Source: Planctomycetota bacterium (GTDB taxonomy: Bacteria > Planctomycetota > JAMOSO01). From it: 20,013 bases of DNA. Both the position numbers and the translations under genes were made by a program. Where the stretch lies: contig JAMOSO010000002.1 in the NCBI GenBank assembly GCA_027063065.1, forward strand, positions 1 through 20,013, given 5' to 3'. This document shows, piece by piece, positions 3,485 to 17,991 of the stretch. Each line of letters opens with the position of its first letter. Within the stretch, counting starts at the first letter, position 1. The notes below the pieces were generated by a model. It was given only the letters and a program-made list of their open reading frames with translations, was not told the origin of the DNA and made no database searches.

Positions 3485-3520
3485 AAATAACCAAATGCTT
3501 TAAATGGTGTTTGGTTATTT
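3485..3520. terminator. Bidirectional hairpin terminator between convergent genes
   Basis: A perfect 11-bp inverted repeat, AAATAACCAAA at 3485-3495 and TTTGGTTATTT at 3510-3520, encloses a 14-base loop. It begins eight bases after the plus-strand gene stop and overlaps the stop codon of the convergent tldE gene. Reading leftwards the stem is followed by a T-rich tract; on the plus strand the T tract is weaker. It probably ends transcription from both sides. Confidence 0.7.
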
Positions 3521-4819
3521 TGCTTTACCTGATATAGATAGGTTGTCTACTAGCATATATGGCAGTAAACTAGAACCGTTTAATTCTTGTTCTGTGGATA
3601 GACCAACAATTTGATTGCCAAATTCATAAATATTACCAGCTAGCATTGCATCTTTCACACGCCCAATTATTTGGCCGTTTTCTACAATAAAACCTAAGCT
3701 AATATTAACAGAAAATTCTCCTGCTAATGAATTGCCTTGTCCTTCTCCTAGTATGTTTTCTACAATGATAGCTTTTGGAAATTGTGTATATATTTCTTGT
3801 AAGCTCATATCTCCAGGCTCTAATACTAGATTGGAGATATCAATATTTGGTTGTGAACTAAAACTTCTGGTTGCATTTCCTGTGGCAGTTGTTTGGCATT
3901 GGTTAGCTGTTTGTAAATCATATAGATGTGTTTTTAGTATACCGTTTTTGACTAAATATTTTTTAAAAACTTCTGTACCTTCCATATCAAATTGACAACT
4001 GCCGTATGCAAAATCAATACTGGGATCATCAATTAAATTTATCATTGGTGATATTATTTGTTTTTCAAGTTTATTGCCTAAGGGGGATATCCCTTTTTGT
4101 ACTGTTTTGCCATTGATTCCCTGAATTATCATTCTCATGAGCATTCTTACAGCACGAGGAGTAAAGATTACAGGTAGTTTTTCTGTTTTAGCCGTAATAT
4201 TAATTTGGCTTAAACGATAAAGATTTGAAATTTTATCTATTATTTTTTGCGTGTCATTTTGGTATGATGCCGAACTAACACCACTAGACAACATAAGCAT
4301 ACCATTATTATCTACTTTTAAGATATCGGCAAATAGACTAAATCCTGAATCTAAACTTTTTAAATATAACCCAGATGAGTTTAATATTTGTGTATGGGCA
4401 ATACCAGAACTGGTTTGAGTGTTTATTTTTAAGCTTGAATCTAATTGTTTTAAATTTTCAATGATTATTTGGCAATTTTTTAACAAAATTTCATCAGTTA
4501 ATTTGTTTATATTGTCATCAAAAATTAAAGTTTTAGTTGGTTTGCAAGAATCTGGAAATTGTATATAAGCTTTCTTACCAAACTTAGCACTTACAATGGC
4601 TTGATTAATTAACCTGTCGATATTTTTTAAATTTGTTGTAGCTGCAAAACCTATTTTACCTTCTTTAATAATTCTTAGCCCTATACCACTAGTTTCATTG
4701 GTAGATATGGTTTTTAATGAATTATTTTCAAAATGAAAACTTTTGCTTAAATTAGAACTGTGTATAATTTCGTATTCAATATTCAATGGTCTTAGCCGAT
4801 TAGCAAGTTTATATAGCAT
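3515..4819 (-). CDS. tldE: TldE/PmbA family protein, non-catalytic TldD partner
   Basis: A 434-residue homologue of TldE (PmbA). In characterised systems TldD and TldE form a heterodimeric zinc protease that matures peptides such as microcin B17 and degrades unfolded peptides or the CcdA antitoxin; TldE lacks the metal site. Here the protein has the family layout: an N-terminal segment with GIGLRIIKEGKIGFAATTNL, a central region, and the conserved C-terminal barrel part (GTEVFKKYLVKNGILKTHLYD, TGNATRS, ENILGEGQGNSLAGEFSVNISLGFIVENG). No HExxxH motif is present, as expected for the E subunit. The ATG directly follows the tldD TAA, and a strong GGAGG lies 7 bases upstream inside the end of tldD, so the two are translationally coupled. 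The gene ends in the shared terminator at 3485-3520. Confidence 0.92.
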   Translation of the reverse strand: MLYKLANRLRPLNIEYEIIHSSNLSKSFHFENNSLKTISTNETSGIGLRIIKEGKIGFAATTNLKNIDRLINQAIVSAKFGKKAYIQFPDSCKPTKTLIFDDNINKLTDEILLKNCQIIIENLKQLDSSLKINTQTSSGIAHTQILNSSGLYLKSLDSGFSLFADILKVDNNGMLMLSSGVSSASYQNDTQKIIDKISNLYRLSQINITAKTEKLPVIFTPRAVRMLMRMIIQGINGKTVQKGISPLGNKLEKQIISPMINLIDDPSIDFAYGSCQFDMEGTEVFKKYLVKNGILKTHLYDLQTANQCQTTATGNATRSFSSQPNIDISNLVLEPGDMSLQEIYTQFPKAIIVENILGEGQGNSLAGEFSVNISLGFIVENGQIIGRVKDAMLAGNIYEFGNQIVGLSTEQELNGSSLLPYMLVDNLSISGKAK

Positions 4820-6193
4820 TTAACGACCTCCAATAACAACGTTTTTAATTTTTATATGCGGAGCTCCACAACTTACACGCAAAGGGCTTTGACCTGCTTT
4901 ACCACAGCCACCCATTCCGCCAAATAAAGTAAGATCGTTACCAATTAACTCTATATTTTTGAGTGTTTCAAATACATTGCCAGTTAGCACTATATCACGA
5001 CATCGTTTGCCAATTTTGCCATTGGTTATATTAAATGCTTCTTCAGCGGAAAAGGTAAACATTTCGGTATTTGTTTGTCCACCTAAGCTACCTTTTGCAT
5101 ATATGGCTTGATTGCAAGAGTCAAGCATTTCGTCAAGGTTAGAATTACCATTGTCGATAAATGTGTTGGACATTCTCACTATAGGGTGGTGTGCATAGTT
5201 GATGGCGCGTCCATTACCTGTAGGAGATTCGTTCATAGCGGTAGCTGTTTCTAATGAGTGTAAACGTCCTGTAAGTATGCCATTTGTAATTAAGTTGGTG
5301 CGTTGCGCTTTAACGCCTTGTGAGTCATATATGTAGCTTCCAGCTTCATCAGTTAAACTAGCATCATCAATTACATTTAATTCATCAGATCCAAATTGTT
5401 TGCCGAGTCGCATGAGGTTAGCAAAGTCTGGGTTTTCGTAAATAAAATCAGCTTCACTTAGATGTCCAAAAGCTTCGTGTATAAAAACGCCTGCTAATTT
5501 TGGATCTAATATGACATCATAGGTATCTGCTTTGATAGGTTTTGCCTTTAATTGCTCAATTGCGCGTTTACATACTTGCTCGCATTCTATTTCTAAATTT
5601 TTAACAATTTCAAATCCGCGTAAATCGCCAACGCTATGATAGGCATTTTGCACATCATTGGCTTTTCTAGCTTGAGCAGATAAAGATAAACCGCAAAATT
5701 TATTAATTGTTTCTATTTCGGCTCCTTCAGAATTACAAAATATATGCTTTGAACACCTATCATTATAAGATACAGAAGAGCTAGTGATAGATTTGTGTGA
5801 CAATAAAATTTTATTATAAGCGTTAATTAAATTATGTTTTTCGTCAATTGAAATATTAGAAAAATCTACCCCAGTTCCTTCATGGGTTTTATCTTTTAGA
5901 TTTGGGATATTTGTAATATATTCATGACCTTTACCTGTTATTTTCACTGCGGCTTCGGCTTGTTTGCAGGCTATTTTTGCGTAGCGACCTATATCTTGGA
6001 TGTTGTTAAACGAGGCAAATCCCCACCGGCCTTTAATTAATACTCTTATTGAGCCGCCAACGGCTGATGTTTCACCAATTGATTCTAATTGGGAACCACG
6101 ATAATAAATACGATTACCCAATCCTTCTTGAATTCTTATTTCAAAATAGTCGGCTTTTATATGTTGTTTAGCTAGTTTTATATATTTTTGCAT
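4820..6193 (-). CDS. tldD: Zinc metalloprotease TldD
   Basis: A 457-residue TldD. The catalytic zinc motif HEAFGH is at residues 239-244 (His239, Glu240, His244), and the third ligand of the family corresponds to Cys430 in the C-terminal GGCGKAGQ segment, matching the position of Cys454 in E. coli TldD. The N-terminal half has the usual SIRVLIKGRWGFAS strand and the end is IKNVVIGGR, typical of the family. With TldE it forms a cytoplasmic protease that cuts unstructured peptides threaded into a sealed chamber. It is the first gene of a two-gene operon; no microcin or RiPP precursor is visible beside it, so a general peptide-turnover role is more likely than dedicated maturation. The ATG at 6193 gives the normal N-terminus, but no clear Shine-Dalgarno or promoter is seen in the 60 bases between it and the upstream terminator. 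Confidence 0.93.
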   Translation of the reverse strand: MQKYIKLAKQHIKADYFEIRIQEGLGNRIYYRGSQLESIGETSAVGGSIRVLIKGRWGFASFNNIQDIGRYAKIACKQAEAAVKITGKGHEYITNIPNLKDKTHEGTGVDFSNISIDEKHNLINAYNKILLSHKSITSSSVSYNDRCSKHIFCNSEGAEIETINKFCGLSLSAQARKANDVQNAYHSVGDLRGFEIVKNLEIECEQVCKRAIEQLKAKPIKADTYDVILDPKLAGVFIHEAFGHLSEADFIYENPDFANLMRLGKQFGSDELNVIDDASLTDEAGSYIYDSQGVKAQRTNLITNGILTGRLHSLETATAMNESPTGNGRAINYAHHPIVRMSNTFIDNGNSNLDEMLDSCNQAIYAKGSLGGQTNTEMFTFSAEEAFNITNGKIGKRCRDIVLTGNVFETLKNIELIGNDLTLFGGMGGCGKAGQSPLRVSCGAPHIKIKNVVIGGR

Positions 6194-6297: not shown

Positions 6298-7617
6298 TTA
6301 ACCAATTAATTTTGGTAGATCTTCTTCAACTGTAGAAATTAAATGAAGATTAAAATTTTCTACTAAAAAGTTAAAGATGGCTTCATTTACAAATTGTGGA
6401 GGTCTAGGTCCAATATAGATGTTTTGAATACCTAAGCTTAGTAAAGCAAACAAAATTAACACAGCTTTTTGCTCCATCCACATTAATGAAATTGCAATTG
6501 GTAAATCGTTTACTGCAATACCTGTTGCTTCGGATAAAGCTAAGGCGATTTGCACTGCACCATTAGAATCATTACATTGGCCTAAATCTAAGTATCGAGG
6601 AATTTCAGTACCAGGAACATTGCCAAAGTCTAAATCATTAAAACGAAATTTACCACAAGAGCTAGTGATGATAACTGTTGTTTCTGGCAATTGTTTTGCC
6701 ATTTCGCGATAGTAATCACGTCCTTTTCCTGGGGCATCACAACCTGCCATAACGATAAATTTAGTTATTTTGCCACTGTTAATAGCTTCTAAGATTTGAG
6801 GTGCTAAACTTAAAATAGTTTTATAGTTATGACCAGTGGTTAAGGTATCTTCAGAGTCAAAGCCTTGAATGTCATCACAAGCTAAGGCAGTTTTTATTAC
6901 TTCACTATAATCATTGCCTTCAATGTGTTTGCCTTGACTAACACCTACTTGACTAGTGGTAAATAAACGATCACAGTAGCTTGCATCGGAACGTGGTATA
7001 ACAATACAGTTAGTATTGACGACAATAGCGCCTTGCCATTTTTCAAAAAGAGCTTTTTGATCAAACCAAGCTTTTCCAATATTACCTTTTAAGTGTGAGA
7101 ATTTTTTAAGTTCTGGGTAAGCGTGCGCAGGTAACATTTCTGAGTGTGTATAAACATTAATACCTTTACCTTCTGTTTGTTCTAATAACTCTTTAAGCAT
7201 TTTTAAGTCGTGGCCTGATACCAATATTCCTTTACCTTCTGCTTTATTTTGAGTTACTGTTACTGGAGTAGGCACACCTAATTTGTTATGGTGAGCATCG
7301 GCTAAAAGTCCCATTACTTCAACTCCGGCAGTGCCTACAGCCATTAATTGCTTGATGTGTCTGTCAAAATCAAAATTTACATTTGTTAATGTAAAGTATA
7401 ATGTTTCTGCTGTCACTTTATCGACATTGCTTGTATCTGCACCTAACTGATGTGCTTGCGAACGATAAGCAGCTAAACCTTTAAGACCATAAATCATCAT
7501 ATCTTGTAAGCGAGCTAAAGTGCTATCTTTGCCACAAGTTCCTTTTTCTGCACCAGACGAACCACACCCGCCTGGGGCAGACATTTCACATTGATTACAT
7601 AACATTGCTAAATCCAT
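6298..7617 (-). CDS. hcp: Hybrid cluster protein (Hcp), short form
   Basis: A 439-residue hybrid cluster protein (prismane protein, historically hydroxylamine reductase; E. coli Hcp acts as an NO reductase and S-nitrosylase). All expected ligands of the 4Fe-2O-2S hybrid cluster can be assigned: His136 (SGHDL), Glu160 (HSEM), Cys204 (NTNC), Cys293 (MAGCD), Cys321 (SSCGKFRFND), Cys348 (LGQCND) and Glu382 (MWMEQKA). The N-terminal cluster Cys are 7, 10, 18 and 28 (CX2CX7CX9C). The protein is about 110 residues shorter than the roughly 550-residue class I/II enzymes and goes straight from the N-terminal Cys region to the later helices, the deletion that defines class III Hcp. The ATG at 7617 has a strong AAGGAG seven bases upstream. 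It is the last gene of the operon, 105 bases after the six-Cys gene, and may also have its own promoter. No adjacent hcr reductase is present, so its electron donor is unknown. Confidence 0.95.
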   Translation of the reverse strand: MDLAMLCNQCEMSAPGGCGSSGAEKGTCGKDSTLARLQDMMIYGLKGLAAYRSQAHQLGADTSNVDKVTAETLYFTLTNVNFDFDRHIKQLMAVGTAGVEVMGLLADAHHNKLGVPTPVTVTQNKAEGKGILVSGHDLKMLKELLEQTEGKGINVYTHSEMLPAHAYPELKKFSHLKGNIGKAWFDQKALFEKWQGAIVVNTNCIVIPRSDASYCDRLFTTSQVGVSQGKHIEGNDYSEVIKTALACDDIQGFDSEDTLTTGHNYKTILSLAPQILEAINSGKITKFIVMAGCDAPGKGRDYYREMAKQLPETTVIITSSCGKFRFNDLDFGNVPGTEIPRYLDLGQCNDSNGAVQIALALSEATGIAVNDLPIAISLMWMEQKAVLILFALLSLGIQNIYIGPRPPQFVNEAIFNFLVENFNLHLISTVEEDLPKLIG

Positions 7618-7652
7618 ACCTTTTCTCCTTCGTATTTAGGTACTAAAACATC

Positions 7653-7671
7653 TATTTATTTAAAATAAATA
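7653..7671. promoter_or_regulatory. AT-only palindrome in the hcp leader
   Basis: TATTTATTT and AAATAAATA flank a single A in the 105-base gap before hcp. It could be a regulator site or a weak hairpin. In such AT-rich DNA it may also be chance, and I do not see a convincing -35/-10 pair with it. It does not match the usual FNR half-site TTGAT. Confidence 0.25.
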
Positions 7672-7722
7672 ATTCTAAAAAATTTATGTGTAAAAACTAT
7701 ATTAATATTGTATTCCCGAAGT

Positions 7723-7962
7723 TTAGTAATTTATACCAGCTTCTAAAATATTTTCTGGGTCAAAAGCATGACAAGGTGTAACTCCATGTACCATACCACA
7801 GTTTTGGCATTTATGAGCAAAGGTTAACATCTCTTGCTCAGTTCCACAACTGCAGGTAAAAAATAATGGGGCGGGAAGCGCTTCTTGATCAAATCCCATT
7901 GATCTAACTTTGTCAATAATTTCTTGACCGTTGGTAAAACCTCCTGAACATCCGTCGTGCAT
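7723..7962 (-). CDS. Small six-cysteine protein, probable metal or Fe-S binder
   Basis: A 79-residue soluble protein with Cys at 5, 37, 39, 52, 55 and 64, arranged as CSCG, CQNCG and PCHAFDP. The CXC plus CXXC pattern with a nearby Cys/His suggests a zinc ribbon or small Fe-S site; this is inferred from cysteine spacing only and I do not recognise a named family with certainty. The start is well supported: TAGGAGAGATT precedes the ATG, and the TAG of this string is the stop codon of the ABC ATPase gene upstream, so the two genes are coupled. Its position between the ATPase and hcp argues for a role as a small partner, for example electron or metal carrier, in the same process. The TAA stop at 7723-7725 is followed by the longest gap in the operon. 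Confidence 0.8.
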   Translation of the reverse strand: MHDGCSGGFTNGQEIIDKVRSMGFDQEALPAPLFFTCSCGTEQEMLTFAHKCQNCGMVHGVTPCHAFDPENILEAGINY

Positions 7963-7970
7963 AATCTCTC

Positions 7971-8966
7971 CTAATTTAATTTTTTTCCGTTGCGCAATTT
8001 ATTACGCAAATTTTGAACTTTGTCATCCATTGCTTGGATTTCACTTAAAATTTCTCGTTCTTCTGGAGATGATTCTATCACCTCTATAATTGCGCCTTTA
8101 GCTATAATTAGTCTTTTTTGCGCAGACAAAGCTAGCACAGGATCGTGTGTAGCGATTAAGACTATTTTTTCTTCACTTAGCAGTAAATCTAGTGCTTTTT
8201 GACGATCTATGCCAGCGTTTTCTATTTCATCGATTAATACAATTGGGCTTCTGCTTAGATATGCTGTATCTGCAATCATCAATGCTCTGCTTTGCCCACC
8301 ACTTAAACTTGTAATTGCTGTTTGAGGATTGAATGATTCTCCTGCAAGTTGGTTTGCAGAATTAATTATCTTTGCTATTTTTGTTTGCGCATTATTGATT
8401 AGACGGCTTTCAGCGTGTAGTTCTAAAAAATCTTGTACAGATAGATCCATTACAAAATTCATATTTTGTGACAATTGAGCTACTAATTTATCTGATGGAG
8501 AAAAACGCTTTTTCATATCAGGTATTTCGTTATTAATTAAAATTTGTCTGCCAGTAGGGGTGTCTCCTTGTGCGATCCATTCAATATCAGCTAATAATCT
8601 ACTTTTTCCACTACCTGTTGGCCCAACTATTGAAATGATATCCCCACGTTTAAAACATAATTTGTCGAAGTTCTCTTTGTTGCCATTTTTATCTGTGCCG
8701 GGCAATATGGTAATGCTGTCTACTTGGTTTTTATTTTCACCTAAAAAACTTAACATATTAGTAATGTATACAGCGAGATTGTCTATGGTGTTTTTTTCAT
8801 TAAGAGTGTGTTCTTCTAAATAATTTGGTGACTTAGAATCAAACCATTGGTGTATTGTTTGGGATGATATTGGTATTGGTATTCCATCTAAGAAAGTTTC
8901 TAAAAACGGATAAGACTCTATTAACTTGTCGGTTGGTATGTTTGCTAGTTCTTGATGATTAATCAT
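7971..8966 (-). CDS. Soluble ABC-type ATPase with N-terminal extension, no permease partner
   Basis: A 331-residue ATP-binding cassette protein. Walker A is GPTGSGKS (115-122), a Gln lies at 165 (AQLSQ), the signature LSGGQ is at 221-225, Walker B is IVLIDEIE (242-249) and the switch His is 274 (ATHD). All catalytic elements are intact. It has an unusual extension of about 105 residues before the cassette; its first part (TDKLIESYPFLETFLDG) resembles a DUF1858-like helix pair, a weak similarity by eye. There are no membrane segments, and no permease gene lies in the operon. The Walker B continuation IENAGID, instead of the usual PTxxLD, is closer to non-transport ABC ATPases. The C-terminal 35 residues are charged and helical. 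The start overlaps the end of the GTPase gene by 8 bases. The role is unknown; partners are inferred to be the adjacent binding-protein-like and GTPase products. It ends with TAG. Confidence 0.85.
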   Translation of the reverse strand: MINHQELANIPTDKLIESYPFLETFLDGIPIPISSQTIHQWFDSKSPNYLEEHTLNEKNTIDNLAVYITNMLSFLGENKNQVDSITILPGTDKNGNKENFDKLCFKRGDIISIVGPTGSGKSRLLADIEWIAQGDTPTGRQILINNEIPDMKKRFSPSDKLVAQLSQNMNFVMDLSVQDFLELHAESRLINNAQTKIAKIINSANQLAGESFNPQTAITSLSGGQSRALMIADTAYLSRSPIVLIDEIENAGIDRQKALDLLLSEEKIVLIATHDPVLALSAQKRLIIAKGAIIEVIESSPEEREILSEIQAMDDKVQNLRNKLRNGKKLN

Positions 8967-9660
8967 TTTGTTTTTCCAAATTTATTTTACGCACATTTCC
9001 CATTTGATATTCTTCACCTATACGAGTTTCTCCTAGGCAGTAAGAGCATAATGCAGAAGGCATTGCAAATCGTAGTTCTTTGCCCAGTAGCGTGTCTAAT
9101 TCTGTTTTGTCAGCTTTAATTAATGTAGATAATTCGTATGCACCTTGCCCAGTTAATCCGTTTATATTTAGTATAGCTGCCATTGGATTTACGGACTGCA
9201 CTCTTGAAGCAAATACTTCACGTTCTGCTTGAGATACAATATCTCCTTTTGTTATAGCTACAATATCGGCTGATCGTAACATGGGGCCTATTTTTGCAGG
9301 TGTTGAAATACCGCTTAAGTTGTCAATTACGCATATTGCAATAATATCTTTAATGTATGGACTACAGCGATTGCATAATCCAGCTGATTCGCTGATTAAA
9401 ATATCAAAATTTTCTTTTTTACCCCATTGTAAAACTTCTTCGATATTTGATACAAAATAGTGATCTGGACATAATCCGCCGGAAATGCCTTTTTTGACTG
9501 GTATGCCAGCTTCTTTGTATAACTTATCATCGTCAGTTTTAAGACAATCAAATTTTACAGCCCCAATTTTTAAGTTACTACTTTGCAATGCAGAAATAGT
9601 TTTTAAAATAACCGCTGTTTTACCTGATGAAGGTGGTCCAGAAACAATAACTAAACGCAT
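8959..9660 (-). CDS. G3E/HypB-UreG-like P-loop GTPase with Cys pairs
   Basis: With the ATG at 9660 this is a 233-residue P-loop protein. That start is preferred over the upstream ATG at 9687 because the P-loop strand MRLVIVSG begins there and GAGGAAG (9665-9671) sits four bases upstream. The P-loop is GPPSSGKT (8-15), followed by GGLCPDHY (61-68), a Walker B-like strand ILISESAGLCNRC (87-99) and TKGD as the likely guanine-specificity motif. This layout is that of the metal-insertion GTPases UreG, HypB and CobW-like proteins, where Cys/His residues near switch regions bind Ni or Zn. Candidate metal ligands here are Cys39, Cys64, His67, Cys96, Cys99 and a C-terminal CSYC (205-208). Genes for urease and hydrogenase are absent nearby, so the client is probably encoded in this operon. 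It overlaps the preceding gene by 10 bases and the next by 8. Confidence 0.82.
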   Translation of the reverse strand: MRLVIVSGPPSSGKTAVILKTISALQSSNLKIGAVKFDCLKTDDDKLYKEAGIPVKKGISGGLCPDHYFVSNIEEVLQWGKKENFDILISESAGLCNRCSPYIKDIIAICVIDNLSGISTPAKIGPMLRSADIVAITKGDIVSQAEREVFASRVQSVNPMAAILNINGLTGQGAYELSTLIKADKTELDTLLGKELRFAMPSALCSYCLGETRIGEEYQMGNVRKINLEKQND

Positions 9661-10868
9661 TGTGCTTCCTCGAAAATTTTTAAACATCTTTGGATTTCAT
9701 AAGTTAAATCTGTTTTTTTAATGTAGTCCCATCCTAGCCATTGCCATGGAGCGTTTTGGTTTAATTTGTTGTCTATGTTTGGATGTAAACTGGGGAATAA
9801 TCCTTTATGTGCTAAAATTTCAGCAGTTTCTAAAGATGAAAACAAATCGATTATAGGTTGAAGTTTTTGAGCTTTCGAGGCCTTAGCTAACATAAAAATC
9901 GGGCTGATTATAGCGCCGTCTTCTGGCCATACGGCTTGCATGGGTCCATTTCCTTTTGCCATTTTGGTAAAAAAATATGGCATAATAGTAACAGTTGGTC
10001 GTTTTGTAGCCCCTTTGCCTTTGGCACCTTTAACCATCTCAGCAGGATGCATTGCCGTAGCCATACTGCGTCCTAAGTCTTTTACTCCTTTATCACCAAA
10101 TCTTTTTTGTATAGTTAAAATAATTGCATTGAATAAATCAAAATCTGATACAGGTAATGAGACTCTTCCTGCAAAGCGTGGATGCAAAATATCTTCCCAT
10201 GTTTTTGGTAAAGGTTCGTCATGCAGTTCGTTGGTATTTACTAAAAATACTGCTGGAACTGTTGCAATCATCGAATAATGCCCATCTGGATCAACCAAAT
10301 TAATTTTATCGAAATCTTTATTGATACAGTTTTGTTTGAATGGTGATAAATCTTTAAAGACACCATCAGCTTTTAATTTGCCCATTTTGGTTTTATCAAA
10401 ATATAGTTCAAATCCAGCAGAAATAAATATATCAGGTATACTATCAATATTGTTAAAGTCTTGCAGATGTTCTTCTACCCATGCGGCACCTTCGCTGGCA
10501 GCTTTTAATACGTATTTTAATGGCGTTTTAGAATTGCTAGCATAGTTTTCAAATGATTCCATTAAAGGTACTCGTACGGGGCAAGGTAATAATCCTGCTA
10601 TAAATAATTCTGCATTATCTGATGAAGCATTATCTCCTAAGGTAACATCGCCACTTGAGATTAAACTATCATGTATTTGTTTGATTAATGCCTGAGCGTC
10701 AATGTCTTTTGTAGCAGCTGCTTGTGATAGTGTTATAGTTGCGCCTAACGTATCTAATAATTGCTGATTATCTACTTGATCAAAGCCTATATTTTTTAAA
10801 ACATCTTTGAGTATAGGGTTAAATTCTACAGTTTGTTTTAATGTCCAGTTTAAATTTGGTTTAGTCAT
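9651..10868 (-). CDS. DUF1858 plus cytoplasmic ABC solute-binding-like protein
   Basis: A 405-residue protein with two parts. Residues about 7-70 look like a DUF1858/ScdA_N-type helical domain (TLKQTVEFNPILKDVLKNIGF), a domain also found at the N-terminus of the Fe-S repair protein ScdA/YtfE family. Residues about 85-395 look like a type-2 periplasmic binding protein of the iron/spermidine-binding class (AELFIAGLLPCPVRVPLMESFENY start, GVFKDLSPF, LPKTWEDILHPRFAGRVSLPVSD, later KGLFPSLHPN). There is no signal peptide or lipobox; the protein begins with a DUF1858 domain, so it should stay in the cytoplasm, which is abnormal for a binding protein. Cys96 in LPCPVR is a candidate ligand. It overlaps tetR by 8 bases and the GTPase by 10 and ends with TAG. 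The ligand is unknown; a metal, an anion or another protein are all possible. Confidence 0.82.
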   Translation of the reverse strand: MTKPNLNWTLKQTVEFNPILKDVLKNIGFDQVDNQQLLDTLGATITLSQAAATKDIDAQALIKQIHDSLISSGDVTLGDNASSDNAELFIAGLLPCPVRVPLMESFENYASNSKTPLKYVLKAASEGAAWVEEHLQDFNNIDSIPDIFISAGFELYFDKTKMGKLKADGVFKDLSPFKQNCINKDFDKINLVDPDGHYSMIATVPAVFLVNTNELHDEPLPKTWEDILHPRFAGRVSLPVSDFDLFNAIILTIQKRFGDKGVKDLGRSMATAMHPAEMVKGAKGKGATKRPTVTIMPYFFTKMAKGNGPMQAVWPEDGAIISPIFMLAKASKAQKLQPIIDLFSSLETAEILAHKGLFPSLHPNIDNKLNQNAPWQWLGWDYIKKTDLTYEIQRCLKIFEEAQCV

Positions 10869-11430
10869 TTTTTTTCAACATAATTAAAAGGGCTGCGGTT
10901 ATTTTTTTACCTTCGTTTTCAAGGTTAAATAAAAAATTAGTTAATTGCCACTGGGTGACTGTTATGCGCATAGAGCCGGCGATAATTCTAAAAATTTCTT
11001 GAGTTCCAATGTCTGCACGTATTTCATTTGCCCGTTGGCCTTCATCTATTACTTTGCCTAAAATATTGCGATGTTTATGCATTGCTATCATCACTGATTT
11101 TGAAATCACAGGATCGTTTTGAAATATCGCCTCACTTAAAACAACTTTGGCCAATAAAGGATTTTGTGCAAATCTAAAGAAACGATCATTTAGAAAGTTT
11201 TTAATTTTTACTAATGAAGATTCATTGCCTTCTAAACAAGGGCTATCTAATTTAGAAAAGCTATCGATTACGCCTTGGAAAATGGCTTGTTTATTTTTGA
11301 AGTGTCGATATAAGGCTGCCTCACTTAAGCCAACTTTGTTGGCTAAGTTTTTAATTGTGCATCCTTGAATGCCTTTATTGGCAATCAATTCTATGGCGGC
11401 TTCAGTAATTTCTGTTTTTCTATTAGTCAT
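10861..11430 (-). CDS. TetR-family transcriptional regulator, first gene of the hcp operon
   Basis: A 189-residue TetR-family repressor. The N-terminal DNA-binding domain is clear: ITEAAIELIANKGIQGCTIKNLANKVGLSEAALYRHFKNKQAIF, with the recognition helix around residues 34-43. The C-terminal ligand-binding part is diverged, as usual, and shows few cysteines, so a small-molecule ligand is more likely than direct Fe-S sensing. The gene starts at 11430, one base after a perfect palindrome (11432-11455) that overlaps its likely -10 element, so it probably represses its own operon. The stop codon overlaps the start of the DUF1858/binding-protein gene by 8 bases. No Shine-Dalgarno is visible, and the predicted leader is only about 14 bases, so initiation may be nearly leaderless. 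Confidence 0.9.
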   Translation of the reverse strand: MTNRKTEITEAAIELIANKGIQGCTIKNLANKVGLSEAALYRHFKNKQAIFQGVIDSFSKLDSPCLEGNESSLVKIKNFLNDRFFRFAQNPLLAKVVLSEAIFQNDPVISKSVMIAMHKHRNILGKVIDEGQRANEIRADIGTQEIFRIIAGSMRITVTQWQLTNFLFNLENEGKKITAALLIMLKKND

Positions 11431-11431
11431 A

Positions 11432-11455
11432 ATGTTAGTAAGTATTTACTAACAT
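11432..11455. promoter_or_regulatory. Perfect palindromic operator for the adjacent TetR regulator
   Basis: ATGTTAGTAA at 11432-11441 and its exact reverse complement TTACTAACAT at 11446-11455 are separated by GTAT. Arms of 10 bp with a 4-bp centre, right beside the tetR start, are the classical layout of a TetR-family operator. It overlaps the predicted -10 of the tetR promoter, fitting repression. Confidence 0.82.
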
Positions 11456-11478
11456 AGTCTTTTTTTTTATTTTGTCAA
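11451..11478 (-). promoter_or_regulatory. Promoter of the tetR-hcp operon
   Basis: On the minus strand a consensus -35 TTGACA (11478-11473) is followed after 16 bases by TATGTT (11456-11451), four of six matches to the -10 consensus. The -10 lies inside the palindromic operator. Transcription would start near 11444, leaving a very short leader before the ATG at 11430. Confidence 0.6.
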
Positions 11479-11533
11479 ATTTTAAATAAATTTTTTAAAA
11501 ATAAGCCTCATTTATAAACTTCTTTTGGTTTTA

Positions 11534-11562
11534 TTGACGCCCAATATATAGTGTGTTAATAT
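11534..11562 (+). promoter_or_regulatory. nrdR operon promoter
   Basis: TTGACG (11534-11539), a 17-base spacer and TAATAT (11557-11562) form a good sigma-70-type promoter. The spacer contains the strong NrdR box, so a bound NrdR would block RNA polymerase. It would drive nrdR and the closely packed genes behind it. It diverges from the tetR promoter. Confidence 0.55.
11539..11554. promoter_or_regulatory. NrdR box 1
   Basis: The 16 bases match the published NrdR-box consensus (acaCwAtATaTwgtgt) at 14 positions, with the whole core CAATATATAG intact. It sits between -35 and -10 of the nrdR promoter, which predicts negative autoregulation by the NrdR-nucleotide complex. Confidence 0.7.
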
Positions 11563-11570
11563 AATTGATT

Positions 11571-11586
11571 ATACTATAAGCAGTTC
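11571..11586. promoter_or_regulatory. NrdR box 2, degenerate
   Basis: About 10 of 16 positions match the NrdR-box consensus, the left half (ATACTATA) far better than the right. It starts exactly 32 bases after box 1, which is about three helical turns and the spacing usually seen between paired NrdR boxes. Alone it would not be convincing. Confidence 0.4.
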
Positions 11587-11613
11587 ATGTTATTTAAAAT
11601 ACAAGGAAATTAA

Positions 11614-12063
11614 ATGAAATGTCCATTTTGTCAAAGCGATGATGATCGTGTTGTGGATTCAAGAGATACTGAAGATGGTGCCGCAGTGCGCCGTCGGAGA
11701 GAATGCAATAAATGTAAAAAACGTTTCACAACCTATGAACGCATAGAAGAGGTTCGTATCTTTGTGGTCAAAAAAGATGGTGCTAGGGTTCCTTTGAACT
11801 CTGATAAAATTGCTGCTGGTATTGCTAAGGCTTGTGAAAAGCGACCTGTCCCAGCTACTGATATGGAAGCTGCCGAACGTGATATTATCCAAAAAATACG
11901 TGAACGAGGTGAAAATGAAATACCCGCTAAAGAAATAGGGGAGTATGTAATGGATCGTTTAAAAGATTTAGATAAAATAGCTTATATAAGATTTGCTTCG
12001 GTATATCGTGAATTTAAAGATGTTGCTGATTTTACAGATGTGGTAAATGCTGTTAATAATTAA
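11614..12063 (+). CDS. nrdR: Transcriptional repressor NrdR
   Basis: A 149-residue NrdR of normal length. The zinc ribbon has Cys3, Cys6, Cys31 and Cys34 (MKCPFC ... CNKC) followed by KRFTTYERIE. The ATP-cone spans about residues 49-139 (VVKKDGARVPLNSDKIAAGI ... YIRFASVYREF). NrdR binds ATP or dATP in the cone and represses ribonucleotide reductase genes through paired NrdR boxes. AAGG at 11603-11606 lies 7 bases before the ATG. The gene heads a plus-strand run with an ATP-cone protein, smc, lgt, sufE and a K+ channel, and its own promoter carries NrdR boxes. No intact ribonucleotide reductase gene is in the window. Confidence 0.98.
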   Translation: MKCPFCQSDDDRVVDSRDTEDGAAVRRRRECNKCKKRFTTYERIEEVRIFVVKKDGARVPLNSDKIAAGIAKACEKRPVPATDMEAAERDIIQKIRERGENEIPAKEIGEYVMDRLKDLDKIAYIRFASVYREFKDVADFTDVVNAVNN

Positions 12064-13202
12064 TGCAAAATAAAATGAGTTTTTCATTTGTTCGCAAGCG
12101 TGATAATAGATTAGTTAAATTTAATAATGACAAAATAGAGGATGCAATCTTTGCGGCTTTTGAAGCGTCTGGACAACCAAATCGACAAAGTGCACAAGAG
12201 CTTGCTGAGGTGGTTTGTTATTATTTGTCAGAAACTGTTAGTACGCAATATCCTTCAATAGAAGAAATACAAGATATTGTTGAAAAAGTGTTGATAGAAA
12301 CAAATCATCATGAAGTGGCTAAGTCGTATATATTATACCGAGAAGAACGTGCTAGGATGCGTGCGCAATTGTATATTTATGATTCAGTTACATTACTTGA
12401 AAAGGTATGGGATAAATCTAAATTGCTACATTATTTAATAGTGGATATTGGTTTAGATGAAACAAGTGCATCTAGCGTAGTTAATGGTTTAGAAAAGATT
12501 TTATTTAATATGGGGATGAATAAAATTTCTAACACTTTATTGCTTGAACTCATTTCAAATTATTTATGCAACAATGGTTTTGGTTCTCAATCTAAAATAA
12601 TAAGACTTAATTATAATGATGTTGCTGATAATTTATATACTCCTGATGCGTTTAGAAAAATATATAAAATTTTAAGCGAGGCGGTTTTATTAGGAGGGTG
12701 TTCTGATAGATTAAGTAAGTTGATAGAAGCTAAAATATTATTAATAGATGATTTTGTGTTAGATATTATTTGTAATTGTAAACCATTTTGTTTAACCATG
12801 AATATAGAGATGGATCTTATGCCTATGGCTAAAGAAATAGGTAAGGGTGAATATGGCAACTTTGTTATATCCATAATAAATCAAATTGATTACATAGTGG
12901 AATATTTTAAAATTCAAACAAATAATCTTGCAATATATTTACAACAGTTAGATGCAATAAAATATGCTGATGTGATAAAAAAATGTCACCATAAAGTATC
13001 TCCATTAGATAAATCTAAACCAATAATTATGTATGTAGATTTGTTAAATATTGATACGTCTTTGAAGTATATGCTTGGTTTAGAAAAAACAGATGAATTA
13101 GTAAATGAAATTTTTAACAAATTAAATTCTGCAATTACGGGGTTACCTAATTATCAGCAGATTATTTTTACAAGAAAAGATAGAGAACTTTTATGCGTTT
13201 AA
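12063..13202 (+). CDS. ATP-cone protein with a possible NrdD-like remnant
   Basis: A 379-residue protein. Residues about 6-97 are an ATP-cone (FVRKRDNRLVKFNNDKIEDAI ... YPSIEEIQDIVEKVLIE ... AKSYILYREER), the allosteric nucleotide-binding domain of ribonucleotide reductases and NrdR. Residues about 115-180 (WDKSKLLHYLIVDIGLDETSAS ... ISNTLLLELISNYL) follow the segment found after the cone in many NrdD/NrdJ enzymes. A further stretch at 195-231 (PDAFRKIYKILSEAVL ... LIEAKILLIDDF) may correspond to the NrdD pattern ending in AHxxGDIHIHDL, but the His residues are lost. The catalytic cysteines, the C-terminal zinc site and the glycyl-radical loop of NrdD are all absent, and the protein is about half the enzyme length. 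It is therefore probably not a reductase; a regulatory nucleotide sensor or a decayed enzyme is possible. Base composition is more AT-rich than smc. Its ATG overlaps the nrdR stop by one base (an alternative ATG is 12075), and its end overlaps smc by 10 bases. Confidence 0.75.
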   Translation: MQNKMSFSFVRKRDNRLVKFNNDKIEDAIFAAFEASGQPNRQSAQELAEVVCYYLSETVSTQYPSIEEIQDIVEKVLIETNHHEVAKSYILYREERARMRAQLYIYDSVTLLEKVWDKSKLLHYLIVDIGLDETSASSVVNGLEKILFNMGMNKISNTLLLELISNYLCNNGFGSQSKIIRLNYNDVADNLYTPDAFRKIYKILSEAVLLGGCSDRLSKLIEAKILLIDDFVLDIICNCKPFCLTMNIEMDLMPMAKEIGKGEYGNFVISIINQIDYIVEYFKIQTNNLAIYLQQLDAIKYADVIKKCHHKVSPLDKSKPIIMYVDLLNIDTSLKYMLGLEKTDELVNEIFNKLNSAITGLPNYQQIIFTRKDRELLCV

Positions 13203-16200
13203 AAAGCATTGAGATGTATGGTTTTAAATCGTTTGCCGATAAAACGGTTGTGGATTTAGATCATGGTTTGACCGTTGTGGTGGGACCCAATGGATGTGGT
13301 AAATCAAATGTGGTTGATGCCTTGAAGTGGGTACTTGGTGAACAATCGGTATCTAGTTTACGTGGTAAAGAGATGGCTGATGTGATTTTTAATGGAACTA
13401 ATCGCCGTCATGCGCTTGGTTATGCAGAGGTTAGTTTAAATATTGATAATAACTTGGGTGCTTTAGGTGTTGATTTTACAGAGGTTAAAGTAACTAGGCG
13501 TGTTTATAGATCTGGAGAAGGAGAATATTTTATTAATAAACGTCCTTGTAGATTAAAAGATGTTAAAGAATTGTTTATGGACACAGGTCTAGGTTCTAAT
13601 TCTTATTCTATTTTGGAACAAGGAAGTATTACTGCTATTTTACAAGCTAATCCGATTGATAGGCGTGTTTTTTTTGAAGAAGCAGCTGGAATTTCTAAAT
13701 ACAAAGCTAAACGCAAAGAGACCTTGCGCAGATTAGAAAGAGTTGAGCAAAATTTGTTACGGGTAAGTGATATTACATCAGAATTAGAAAAACAATTAGG
13801 TAGTATTCGTCGTCAAGCGTCTAAAGCGAGACGTTATAAAGAAATGGCTGATAAGCTTAAACAGTTGCGGATAGCATTGGCATTAAATAATTATAAAAAT
13901 TTAACTGAAACATTAACAAAAGTAGTAAATGATTTAAATGTTAATCAAGTTAAATTAGAGGAAGTTAAAACAAAAATCTCTAGCGGTGAAGCAGAGTATG
14001 CTATTAAGCAAGAACAAGTGCTGTCTTTGGAAACTAAAATTCAAACTTTGGAAAAAGAAGTCGTAGAAATTGATGTTAGATTGGAAAATTTTGAAAAAAC
14101 AATATCTGAATCAAAACAGATGATTGCTGAATTTGAAAACAATCGTAATAATATAGAAGAGTCAATGTTAAAATATCAAGATGATATCGCTTTGATGAGT
14201 GAAGACTTACAGACTTTTGATCAACGCGGAGATGCTATCAAGGCTGAAAAAACAGCTATGGAATCAGATATTTTAGCTGCAACGGAAGTCGTAAACAATA
14301 TAGGCAAAGCCAGTCGCGAGGCTTTAGAAAATATTGAAAATATGCGCAAAGAAAACTTACGTTTAGTAGAAGAAAAATCAGCCACGTTAGGGCAAATAGG
14401 TCAAATAGATATGCAAATGTCTAATGTAAATGATCAAAATGCGTATGTGTTGGAGCGTACTAATGCCTTAGACTGTGAAATTAGAAAAGTTAGTTCAGAG
14501 CATGAAGGTCAATTATCAATGGTTTCTCATGCCCGTGAAGAATTGAATGCTCATCAACATACATCTAGATTACATCAAGAAAATTTAGACAAATTATTAA
14601 AAGAACGCAAAGAATTAGATGAAGCTGTTAAGCGTACTTCTCAACAGTTGTGGCAACAATCGTCTCGTTTAAAAGCTTTAGAAGGTATGGAAGCAAGTTT
14701 TGAAGGTTTATACGGTGGCGTTAAATCGGTTATGGTTGGTGCAGAACGCAATGAACTGCATGGCATTAGGGGGTTGGTTGCAGATATTATAGAGGTTGAC
14801 AATAAATATAATATAGCTATTGAAACAGCCTTAGGAGGTAAGGGTCAAAATATTATTACCAACACTAATAAGGATGCGAAGTTGGCGGTAGAATTTTTAA
14901 AGAAAAATAGAGCGGGTCGTGCTACGTTTATTCCTTTAGATAATATACGTTATGATAAAAGTCATAATGTACCACGAGCTAACGGTGTTTTAGGAAGAGC
15001 CGCTGATTTGGTGACCTGTAGTGCGGAGTTCACTTCAGCAGTAGAATATTTGTTGGGACGTATTTTAGTTATTGACACATTGGATAATGCTTTGGCTGTA
15101 TCAAGACAGAAAGTTGGGTATTTGTTAGTTACATTAGACGGGGAGAGTATAAATCCACGTGGTGCTATTACGGGTGGCAGTCGTGCTAAAAATAGCGATG
15201 GAGGATTGTTGCAACGCAAAAATGAAATTAAGCGACTTACTGAATTATCAAATAATTTAGAACGAGAGTTAAATAGAGACAAGTTAGCTCTTAATAAAAG
15301 TGAAGAGGCTTATAGTAAAGCATTGTCTGAATTTGATACATTTAAAGAGAGTAAGCTCAATTTGGAACGTCAACTATTTGAAGGTGAGAGTGTCTTGCGT
15401 CAATTGAACGAAAATCTCTCTAGATTAACTAAGGAAAAAACACAATTACAGGACAAGTCAGGAACATCTAAACAGTCTTTGTCTGAACTGTTAGGTGAGA
15501 AAATGCGTTTAGAATCACAGTTAGAAAGCTTAGAAAATAAGCATTCAGATATACAGTCTGCATTGTCTTTTGCTGAAGAATCTATTGCTGCATCCGATGA
15601 GAAAAGGCGCATAGCAGAAGAAAAATTAACTCAGTTAAAAATAAACAATGCAACCATCGATGCTAAGATTAATAATTTTTCTAGCGAAAAAAACAGGTTG
15701 ACTAAAGCTATTGGTGAAAGAAAAGAGTTATTAAATGATTTGCTTGAGGAAAAAAATAACCGTGGTGAAAGAACTGAAATATTGCGACAACGTATAGTAC
15801 AGAGTGAGTTATCCATAAAAGAATTTTTAAATTCAAAAGAGACAGGTAGTGCTAGATTGCGAGAATTAATCAATGAGCGTGAAAGTGTGAAAAGAACTAT
15901 GGATGCGTTTTATTTAGAAAATAAGGAAGTTATCAAACTACAGAAAGATTTAGAAAATAACATTCAACATCTGCGTATTAAAGAGGGCGAATCGCAGATT
16001 AAGCTAGATAATTTGCGTGAAACGGTTAGAGATAATTATGGTCTTAATATTGATGAGGCGTTCCAAACAGTTGAGTATAGCGAATTGGATTGGTCTTTGG
16101 CTCGCAAAGAAATCAAAGAATTAGATGATTCTATTAGGCGTTTAGGGCCCGTCAATATGGAGGCGATTGAAGAAGAAACAGAATTAGAACAAAGATTTGA

Positions 16201-16771
16201 ATTTTTAACAGCTCAAATAACTGATTTAACCAGTTCTAAAGAACAGTTGTTGGCGGTTATTGCCCAGATAAACAAAGATAGTCGTGAGTTGTTTGGTACA
16301 ACGTTTAAAGCTATTCAAGAAAATTTTGCTATTTTATTTCGCAAGTTCTTTGGTGGCGGTAAGGCAGAGTTGCGTTTAGATGGTGATGATATTTTAGAGG
16401 CCGGTGTTGAGATAATGGTGCGACCACCGGGCAAGCAACCATCAACTATGGATTTACTTTCTGGTGGAGAAAAGACAATGACCACAATAGCGTTGTTGTT
16501 TGCCATATATCGTTCTAAACCAAGTCCTTTTTGTGTGTTGGACGAAGTGGATGCTCCATTAGATGAAAGTAATATTGATAGGTTTGTAAGTGTAGTTAAA
16601 GAGCTTTTAAATACATCTCAGTTTATGATTGTTTCACATAATAAGCGTACAATAGGGATGGGTGATTGTATATATGGAGTTACTATGCAAGAGACAGGCG
16701 TAAGCCGTTTGTTGTCTATGAAGTATGAAGAGGCTGCTGCGGTTGTCGAAGATGAACGTGTCGGTGTTTAA
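13193..16771 (+). CDS. smc: Chromosome segregation ATPase SMC
   Basis: A full-length 1192-residue SMC. The N-terminal head has MRLKSIEMYGFKSFADKT and Walker A GPNGCGKS (31-38), then the conserved GTGLGSNSYSILEQG-like region with an intact FFEEAAGISKYKAKR. A long coiled coil runs to about residue 500, the hinge occupies about 503-670 (GIRGLVADIIEV ... GAITGGSR), and the second coil returns to a head with signature LSGGEKTMT (1089 on) and Walker B CVLDEVDAPLDE (Asp1117, Glu1118). SMC dimers with ScpA and ScpB load at origins and extrude DNA loops to separate sister chromosomes; scpA and scpB are not in the window. The start overlaps the ATP-cone gene by 10 bases and the stop is one base before the lgt start, so smc is embedded in an operon that begins at nrdR. 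Confidence 0.98.
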   Translation: MRLKSIEMYGFKSFADKTVVDLDHGLTVVVGPNGCGKSNVVDALKWVLGEQSVSSLRGKEMADVIFNGTNRRHALGYAEVSLNIDNNLGALGVDFTEVKVTRRVYRSGEGEYFINKRPCRLKDVKELFMDTGLGSNSYSILEQGSITAILQANPIDRRVFFEEAAGISKYKAKRKETLRRLERVEQNLLRVSDITSELEKQLGSIRRQASKARRYKEMADKLKQLRIALALNNYKNLTETLTKVVNDLNVNQVKLEEVKTKISSGEAEYAIKQEQVLSLETKIQTLEKEVVEIDVRLENFEKTISESKQMIAEFENNRNNIEESMLKYQDDIALMSEDLQTFDQRGDAIKAEKTAMESDILAATEVVNNIGKASREALENIENMRKENLRLVEEKSATLGQIGQIDMQMSNVNDQNAYVLERTNALDCEIRKVSSEHEGQLSMVSHAREELNAHQHTSRLHQENLDKLLKERKELDEAVKRTSQQLWQQSSRLKALEGMEASFEGLYGGVKSVMVGAERNELHGIRGLVADIIEVDNKYNIAIETALGGKGQNIITNTNKDAKLAVEFLKKNRAGRATFIPLDNIRYDKSHNVPRANGVLGRAADLVTCSAEFTSAVEYLLGRILVIDTLDNALAVSRQKVGYLLVTLDGESINPRGAITGGSRAKNSDGGLLQRKNEIKRLTELSNNLERELNRDKLALNKSEEAYSKALSEFDTFKESKLNLERQLFEGESVLRQLNENLSRLTKEKTQLQDKSGTSKQSLSELLGEKMRLESQLESLENKHSDIQSALSFAEESIAASDEKRRIAEEKLTQLKINNATIDAKINNFSSEKNRLTKAIGERKELLNDLLEEKNNRGERTEILRQRIVQSELSIKEFLNSKETGSARLRELINERESVKRTMDAFYLENKEVIKLQKDLENNIQHLRIKEGESQIKLDNLRETVRDNYGLNIDEAFQTVEYSELDWSLARKEIKELDDSIRRLGPVNMEAIEEETELEQRFEFLTAQITDLTSSKEQLLAVIAQINKDSRELFGTTFKAIQENFAILFRKFFGGGKAELRLDGDDILEAGVEIMVRPPGKQPSTMDLLSGGEKTMTTIALLFAIYRSKPSPFCVLDEVDAPLDESNIDRFVSVVKELLNTSQFMIVSHNKRTIGMGDCIYGVTMQETGVSRLLSMKYEEAAAVVEDERVGV

Positions 16772-16772
16772 G

Positions 16773-17570
16773 ATGCCAATAGTATGGGATGCTTCTCCAA
16801 TTTTGTTTAGTTTTGGCTCTTTTGAAATTAGATGGTACGGATTGTTGTTTGCATTAAGCTTTTATTTTGGTTTAAGCCTAATGCAGTTTATGTATAAACG
16901 TGAAAATATTATACCATTGGATATTGATAAATGTTTGACCTATATTATGGTTGGTGTAGTTGTTGGTGCTAGATTAGCGCATTGTATTTTTTATGATCCA
17001 ACATATTATTTTTCGCACCCCGTAGATGTATTGAAAGTATGGGAGGGTGGCTTGGCAAGTCACGGTGGTGGTGTTGGTTTGTTGATTGGGTTGTGGTTAT
17101 ATTGCAAACAGAGCCAAACTGAAAGTATGTTTTGGATGATGGATAGACTGTCGTTAACAATTTTATTGGGCGGTAGTTTAATCCGTTTTGGAAATTTTAT
17201 GAATTCTGAAATTATTGGCACTCCAGCTAATGTTCCATGGGCTATTGTTTTTGCACATTATGATAATGTTCCAAGACATCCGGTGCAGTTGTATGAGAGT
17301 GGTGTATACCTAATGTTGTTTGTTATTTTATTTTTAATTTACTTAAAAACTGATATTGCTAGGCGTGCTGGTATGATGATGGGGTTTTGTATGACGGGTA
17401 TTTTCGCATCGAGAATATGCTTAGAATGCTTTAAGGAAAGAATGGCTAGCTATGATTTGGCTATAGGTTTGAGTGTTGGACAGATGCTAAGTATACCATT
17501 TTTAATAGTTGGTATTGTCTTGCTTTACAGAGGTAGTAAAAAAACGTATATAATAATCAATAGGAAATAA
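16773..17570 (+). CDS. lgt: Prolipoprotein diacylglyceryl transferase Lgt
   Basis: Inner-membrane enzyme that moves the diacylglyceryl group from phosphatidylglycerol to the lipobox Cys of prolipoproteins. With the ATG at 16773 it has 265 residues, typical of the family, and begins MPIVWDASPILFSFGSFEIRWYG, the usual Lgt N-terminus; ATGs at 16725 and 16752 in the same frame would lie inside smc and add an atypical stretch. Conserved elements are the GGLASHGGGVG loop with the essential His (97), RFGNFMNSEIIG (Arg139, Asn141, Glu146 region) and PRHPVQLYES. Several hydrophobic segments form the multi-span membrane domain. It starts one base after the smc TAA and is followed directly by sufE. Its presence shows the cell makes lipoproteins. 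Confidence 0.95.
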   Translation: MPIVWDASPILFSFGSFEIRWYGLLFALSFYFGLSLMQFMYKRENIIPLDIDKCLTYIMVGVVVGARLAHCIFYDPTYYFSHPVDVLKVWEGGLASHGGGVGLLIGLWLYCKQSQTESMFWMMDRLSLTILLGGSLIRFGNFMNSEIIGTPANVPWAIVFAHYDNVPRHPVQLYESGVYLMLFVILFLIYLKTDIARRAGMMMGFCMTGIFASRICLECFKERMASYDLAIGLSVGQMLSIPFLIVGIVLLYRGSKKTYIIINRK

Positions 17571-17571
17571 A

Positions 17572-17991
17572 ATGGCTTTAGAAGATAAAAATAAATTAGT
17601 AAAGGATTTGAATGCTATAGGTGATCAGGATGAAAAATTTAGATATATTATACAGTATGGCAAGTCTTTGCCTGTATATCCTGATGAGTTTAGAAATGAA
17701 GATTTTTTGATTAAAGGTTGTGTTTCACAGTTATGGCTACATCCGGAGTTTAAAAACGATAAATTATATTTTATGGTAGATTCTGATGCTACTATTCCTA
17801 AGGGGATAGCGGCCATATTGGCGAGTGTATTTAGTGGGTTAACGCCAGATGAGGTTATAGCTTTTGATACTAGTTTTTTGTCTGATGTGGGGGTGGAGCA
17901 ACATTTAAGTATGAATAGGCGCAATGGTTTGGCCTCATTGCATAAGCAAATTAAAATGTATGGTATTGCATTTAAAGCAATGCAAAAATAA
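17572..17991 (+). CDS. sufE: SufE-family Fe-S biogenesis sulfur acceptor
   Basis: A 139-residue SufE-like protein. SufE takes persulfide sulfur from the cysteine desulfurase SufS and hands it to the SufBCD scaffold; the catalytic residue here is Cys50 in FLIKGCVSQLWL, the same place as Cys51 in E. coli SufE. Family features around it include the YxxIIxYGKSLP segment and SDATIPKGIAAILASVFSGLTPDEV. The length is normal. AGGA lies 6 bases before the ATG, and the gene starts 2 bases after lgt ends. It sits away from other suf genes in this window. Fe-S supply is relevant to the Hcp system on the other strand, but the two are separately transcribed and the link is only thematic. A CsdE-like role cannot be excluded. 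Confidence 0.93.
   Translation: MALEDKNKLVKDLNAIGDQDEKFRYIIQYGKSLPVYPDEFRNEDFLIKGCVSQLWLHPEFKNDKLYFMVDSDATIPKGIAAILASVFSGLTPDEVIAFDTSFLSDVGVEQHLSMNRRNGLASLHKQIKMYGIAFKAMQK

Follow-up and report, generated by a model that had tools for sequence, protein, structure and literature searches.

A six-gene operon on the minus strand of a planctomycete contig encodes what we read, with a probability of roughly 0.55, as a cytosolic metallocluster-maturation module that delivers metal. It lies in a stretch of 20,013 nucleotides, hereafter the window (Planctomycetota bacterium, assembly GCA_027063065.1, contig JAMOSO010000002.1, positions 1 to 20,013). In operon order, its products are a TetR regulator, a solute-binding-like protein (SBP) that joins a DUF1858 domain to a ferric-binding fold, a G3E GTPase, an ATP-binding cassette (ABC) ATPase, a 79-residue protein with six cysteines (MINI) and a class III-type Hcp. 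The SBP, GTPase and ABC genes (the triad) would form the core of the module, with MINI added in the Hcp branch. Metal delivery or cluster maturation is our best reading because the candidate clients share an unusual Fe-S cluster and the module shares metal-handling folds. Separate versions for Hcp and for nitrogenase probably exist, judging from the gene neighbourhoods. The argument draws on observed gene order, conservation, the split of partners between GTPase groups, folds and motifs.

The link to Hcp is real, although maturation of Hcp only is too narrow a description. A genome scan retrieved 54 GTPase loci (55 counting the window), and a second sample comprised 60 newly read loci from Tissierellales and Desulfobulbia, a deliberate choice that enriched for these taxa. 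For the related loci, open reading frames were identified mechanically and given names from similarity, and many of the genomes are draft metagenome-assembled genomes. In the window's GTPase group (86 loci), hcp was found within 7 kb in 34 loci and nif in none. The first survey had hcp adjacent in 7 of 55 loci, the window included, while a rough estimate of the number expected by chance among the other 54 is about 0.2; the link was read as weak at that point, a reading overturned by the Tissierellales, where 79 out of 249 genomes carry the GTPase. In the new sample, hcp lay within 4.5 kb in 28 out of 60 loci, on the same strand in 27 of them and commonly 50–170 bases past the last gene. This proximity was seen in all 24 new loci bearing MINI, compared with 4 out of 36 lacking it. 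In members of Tissierellales, which belong to another phylum, the genes stand exactly as in the window, SBP>GTPase>ABC>MINI>hcp. The association with hcp, which the original prediction had based on the window's sequence, is thus recurrent, and so is the gene order. In one genome (locus L024, genome G074, contigs C1 and C3), the contig stops just past MINI and the only Hcp gene starts at base 178 of another contig; the two genes are probably adjacent across the gap, making 34 hcp-linked loci a lower bound.

The sister GTPase groups (31 loci) have a different set of neighbours: nif or nitrogenase-like genes were present in 14 loci and hcp in none (the split gene of L179, a member of the window's group, was dropped from this count). 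In Desulfobulbia, the triad is inserted in the order nifE-nifN-nifB-SBP-GTPase-ABC-nifO, where nifO encodes a nitrogenase-associated protein, and NifE (644 bits), NifB (398) and the nitrogenase-associated protein (139) all score above cut-off. In Rhodoblastus, it lies within a V-nitrogenase cluster (VNFD, 981 bits) together with NifX, a phosphonate-type importer and an amino-acid-kinase family protein that we read as MoSto-like. Across the proteobacterial family of Rhodoblastus, the triad was detected in 6 out of 199 genomes, exactly the six with a V- or Fe-only-type nitrogenase over the cut-off, while the 37 genomes with only lower-scoring (Mo-type) nitrogenase matches lack it. Nitrogenase was carried by 13 out of 13 sister-group genomes checked in the first set; in the window's group, the figure was 1 out of about 36. 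In two Tissierellales genomes (L173 and L174, positions ~9000–17600), a divergent GTPase-ABC-SBP set immediately precedes a nitrogenase-like operon of NifH-, NifD- and NifK-like genes with a Fec-type importer. Both paralogues occur in the genome G1093, where L143 adjoins hcp and L174 is the copy in the NifHDK-like operon.

The split between groups gave Fisher p values of ~4e-6 for hcp and ~6e-10 for nif, uncorrected for relatedness. In a tree of 116 GTPases, all 34 hcp-linked rows fell inside one set of 76 (SH-aLRT 98) and every nif-linked row fell outside it, with hcp linkage changing at least five times on well supported branches. To a broader claim we give slightly less than even odds: that inward-turned importer parts and a G3E GTPase form a general cytosolic machine for metallocluster maturation, not described before, with dedicated versions for Hcp (with MINI), for cofactor assembly of Mo- and V-nitrogenase and for nitrogenase-like enzymes.

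Importers of the ModAB, Fec and phosphonate/vanadate types neighbour sister-group triads. Triads stand beside Fec-type metal importers at L042, L044, L047, L052, L171 and L172, several with a SAM (S-adenosylmethionine) methyltransferase, and the L042 cluster also contains a TrmO-like protein. A Rhodoblastus genome that has the vnf-linked triad (G099) encodes a second ABC-GTPase pair (L075:7525-10379), ~40% identical and without an SBP, beside a sigma-54 activator.

The chief rival is a nitrosative-stress module that would repair, or strip iron from, Fe-S proteins damaged by nitric oxide (NO), with Hcp merely a co-regulated neighbour, both being induced in answer to NO; sister versions would protect the NO-sensitive nitrogenase. 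Several neighbours suit this explanation: a YgbA_NO gene directly upstream of the triad in another planctomycete locus (L037), a hemerythrin-PAS gene after MINI (L018), Crp-type (L014 and L022) and Rrf2 (L010) regulators, and NapC-type and multihaem cytochromes (L008 and L009). The window's own genome has a YgbA_NO gene elsewhere (L062, G000:C54:12301-12582), and HcpR regulons contain hemerythrin and cytochrome genes (PMC1274295). However, no NO-stress gene other than hcp is consistent across loci, and the position of sister triads within nifENB cofactor-assembly operons and near metal importers points to metal or cofactor supply. We consider this rival unlikely, albeit the most serious of the alternatives.

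The triad formed an operon in most of the 54 independently fetched loci, a recurrence that is more than chance. It was mostly unlinked to a permease across more than 10 phyla, being found in Desulfobacterota, Spirochaetota, Acidobacteriota, Bacteroidota, Bacillota, Fusobacteriota, Planctomycetota, Krumholzibacteriota, Chlorobiota, Myxococcota and Pseudomonadota. MINI followed in 23 loci of the first survey. Among 295 genomes of the class Bacteroidia, the GTPase was present only in the seed genome, and a plasmid search returned a single Fusobacterium record. A 2.1 Mb sequence labelled plasmid pSB055A of Fusobacterium vincentii (L063, NZ_CP084075.1) looks like the chromosome, with dnaJ-like and other housekeeping genes in the part that was read. 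At L041:1653-12239, a tandem pair of triads, one of them highly divergent, lies between two Ssu/NMT1-type ABC importers.

The SBP matches SBP_bac_6 with 263 bits, and its predicted structure (pLDDT, the predicted local distance difference test, 89) gives the main domain a ferric-binding-protein fold. FbpA (1mrp) and FutA1 (2pt2) each aligned with Z 23.1, a root mean square deviation of 3.3–3.4 over 286–288 residues and an identity of 10–14%. Cys96 is more than 90% conserved and, judged only from the offset in the alignment, lies close to His9 of FbpA. Unlike FbpA, FutA and SfuA, SBP_bac_6 proteins of ABC importers with which it shares the fold, the window SBP has an N-terminal DUF1858 domain, no export signal and no permease, and it and its partner proteins are predicted to be cytoplasmic. 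In its first 45 residues, the best 12-residue Kyte-Doolittle mean was 0.57, whereas two exported controls reached 2.65 and 2.89; hydrophobicity was used here in place of a signal-peptide predictor. The DUF1858 domain presumably recalls the N-terminal domain of the YtfE/ScdA (RIC) iron-centre repair proteins, and both occur with hcp and NO genes; in contrast to these proteins, the triad has no hemerythrin domain. The N-terminal domain of the ABC ATPase weakly resembles DUF1858 (hhalign 45.6%; 20 column shuffles gave no more than 1.5%). A soluble ABC ATPase acting without a permease has a precedent in SufC of the SufBCD system, which works in Fe-S assembly. The window operon differs from that system in lacking a SufB/SufD scaffold gene, none being found among its six genes with Pfam/NCBIfam, while the related loci were not searched for it.

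The ATPase and SBP could also be parts of a metal importer with its permease encoded elsewhere, the SBP serving as a late acceptor. Fec-, Mod-, Ssu- or Phn-type importers do neighbour sister-group triads, and Fusobacterium has a Znu-like importer after the triad, but the neighbouring importers of the sister groups come with an ATPase and an exported binding protein of their own. Moreover, the SBP has no signal peptide, a Pfam/NCBIfam scan of the six operon proteins found no permease, and a tested metal-import family was near only 3 of the 86 window-group loci. We regard the importer as highly improbable. The original prediction had stressed that an importer needs an exported binding protein and a membrane subunit, and had treated adjacency to a permease as fatal to its proposal; neither component of an importer was found in the operon, the ATPase is soluble and the SBP begins with DUF1858 in place of a hydrophobic segment.

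The GTPase has a cobW domain (CobW/HypB/UreG; 48.2 bits, Pfam cut-off 20.7). Its CPDH motif, invariant in 54 out of 54 GTPases, falls in alignments on the metal sites of UreG (CPH) and HypB (GCH). The P-loop G3E domain and the position of the metal-site motif are common to these proteins, as expected from the metal-insertion type of GTPase that had been proposed. It differs from UreG, HypB and CobW in the extra Cys pairs CNRC and CSYC, which are almost invariant, and in its partners, an SBP and an ABC ATPase without any urease or hydrogenase context. We rejected its identification as HypB or UreG proper, both scores being far under the equivalog cut-offs (51.5 vs 121.2 bits and 27.3 vs 204.2 bits, respectively). 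Its true start is probably Met10 (base 9660). A ligand-binding fold, two nucleoside triphosphatases and regulators that are often adjacent would also suit a cytosolic sensor, with the SBP fold responding to a metal or metabolite and signals from the ABC ATPase and GTPase governing the activity or expression of an enzyme. An output domain is absent, however, and the invariant Cys and CPDH metal motifs of the GTPase suit delivery better; we regard the sensor as about as improbable as the importer.

MINI has exactly six cysteines (C5, C37, C39, C52, C55 and C64), the number that had been predicted, and these, as well as H2, are invariant in 18 sequences. Its structure is predicted with a pLDDT of 90. 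No Pfam/NCBIfam family was matched, and Foldseek retrieved no significant relative; the only structural likeness was a weak one to the LysW zinc ribbon (Z 2.6). A small partner encoded beside a HypB-like GTPase, beginning with MH[D/E] and bearing four cysteines in a zinc-ribbon-like arrangement, MINI is reminiscent of the nickel chaperone HypA, but it is shorter, lacks detectable homology and has the extra C5 and TPC motif. The Hcp scores 562 bits with the whole-protein profile TIGR01703 for hydroxylamine reductase/Hcp (cut-off 360.8), and positions 78–161 of the Pfam profile are unmatched. Class III Hcp lacks the ~100-residue middle region of classes I and II (PMC10502027), and we call the window protein class III-type because those positions are absent. 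The missing middle region and the all-HCP profile match are shared with the class III Hcp of Methanothermobacter marburgensis (PMC10502027), from which the window protein differs in being bacterial, in having no rubredoxin domain and in its operon with the triad.

From these features we infer metal binding, the direction of transfer, energy use and the identity of the client. The SBP would hold iron, another metal or a metal chelate inside the cytosol rather than outside the cell. The ABC ATPase would open or drive the SBP, the two proteins docking via their related DUF1858-type domains at the N-terminus, and, as with SufC, no membrane subunit would be needed. The GTPase would receive the metal at the CPDH/Cys sites, releasing it to the client upon GTP hydrolysis (cf. 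UreG and HypB), with MINI as a possible client adaptor or zinc-ribbon partner. In the Hcp branch, the client would be Hcp, with a hybrid Fe-S-O cluster that may need repair, or a last loading with iron, when nitrosative stress sets in. For the sister groups, the client would be nitrogenase or an enzyme like it, along with the cofactor.

Several points weigh against maturation by metal delivery. No Hcp match was found in 20 out of 48 GTPase-bearing genomes of the first set, and Hcp, therefore, cannot be the sole client. About ten of the MINI-bearing genomes in that set also lack an Hcp match; the tie between MINI and hcp is, thus, not strict, and within the window's branch, too, some clients would be proteins other than Hcp. 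The module is absent from many bacteria that have Hcp (the Hcp of Escherichia coli works with Hcr) and is therefore not strictly required. Relatedness makes the loci non-independent, with most Hcp cases coming from Tissierellales, and neighbourhood links can equally reflect shared regulation. Both the metal ligand of the module and the retention of the FbpA iron ligands in the SBP are putative, and MINI cannot be equated with HypA (hhalign probability 1.0%, not significant). The original prediction of a maturation, repair or NO-stress module for Hcp holds as to the hcp link and the NO-stress neighbours, but not as to confinement to hcp: a strictly Hcp-dedicated factor is rejected by the genomes without Hcp and by the sister groups, which are found in nif and vnf clusters or beside metal importers and never beside hcp. 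It thus fails the condition set in the original prediction, that the accessory genes should not usually occur without hcp, whereas the case for a wider metallocluster or metal-delivery module that includes an Hcp branch has grown stronger. Carbon monoxide dehydrogenase, a relative in the Hcp superfamily, was rejected as a client, with weak CooS-like matches in only ~4 out of 48 genomes.

The six genes named from the window's sequence all have open reading frames at the coordinates in Table 1, and their families were matched by Pfam/NCBIfam, except for MINI. The predicted spacing, with the first five genes overlapping or 8 bases apart, was also found: 8-base overlaps join TetR to SBP and GTPase to ABC, and 8 bases separate ABC from MINI. 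The overlap between SBP and GTPase is 37 bases as annotated, or ~10 if the GTPase begins at the conserved internal Met10, and the gap from MINI to hcp is 105 bases.

Table 1. Coordinates of the operon features in the window.
Feature	Position	Strand	Basis
Perfect 20-bp palindrome in front of tetR, GTTAGTAAnnnnTTACTAAC = GTTAGTAA-N4-TTACTAAC	11434..11453	none	
TetR-family regulator (189 aa) at the head of the operon	10861..11430	-	TetR_N 4.7e-13
Cytoplasmic SBP (predicted), 405 aa, DUF1858 (5-62) and SBP_bac_6 (142-385)	9651..10868	-	Pfam, predicted structure
G3E (HypB/UreG-like) GTPase with CPDH, CNRC and CSYC motifs	8959..9687	-	Pfam, alignments
Soluble ABC ATPase, 331 aa	7971..8966	-	ABC_tran 56 bits
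MINI, 79 aa, MH[D/E]GC N-terminus, zinc-ribbon-like Cys pairs, TPC motif	7723..7962	-	Alignment, predicted structure
Hcp, 439 aa, class III-type	6298..7617	-	Prismane; TIGR01703

The palindrome has its sole exact copy in the 2.13 Mb genome ahead of tetR and is likely an autoregulatory TetR operator. A wider TetR regulon could not be drawn from operator copies, as no further exact site was found and matches with three mismatches were at background. The nearest NCBIfam family of the regulator is FadR-type, with a score far under the cut-off. By inspection, two paralogous genes beyond hcp (3515-6193) resemble the TldD/PmbA (TldE) protease pair, and the upstream divergent genes (11614-16771) look like NrdR and large ATP-cone/ribonucleotide-reductase-like genes.

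The literature searched contained nothing on DUF1858 with Hcp or on these genes, which is weak evidence of novelty. To our knowledge, no dedicated factor is known for the assembly of the hybrid cluster, and the heterometal route to the cofactor in diazotrophs without NifQ is, as far as we know, largely unexplained. If the metal-delivery reading is true, one module split between hcp and nif/vnf clusters would be a shared, testable candidate for both fields and a possible extra part for nitrogenase engineering. The module would further offer a clear example of how a binding protein and ATPase of the ABC type can work wholly inside the cell.

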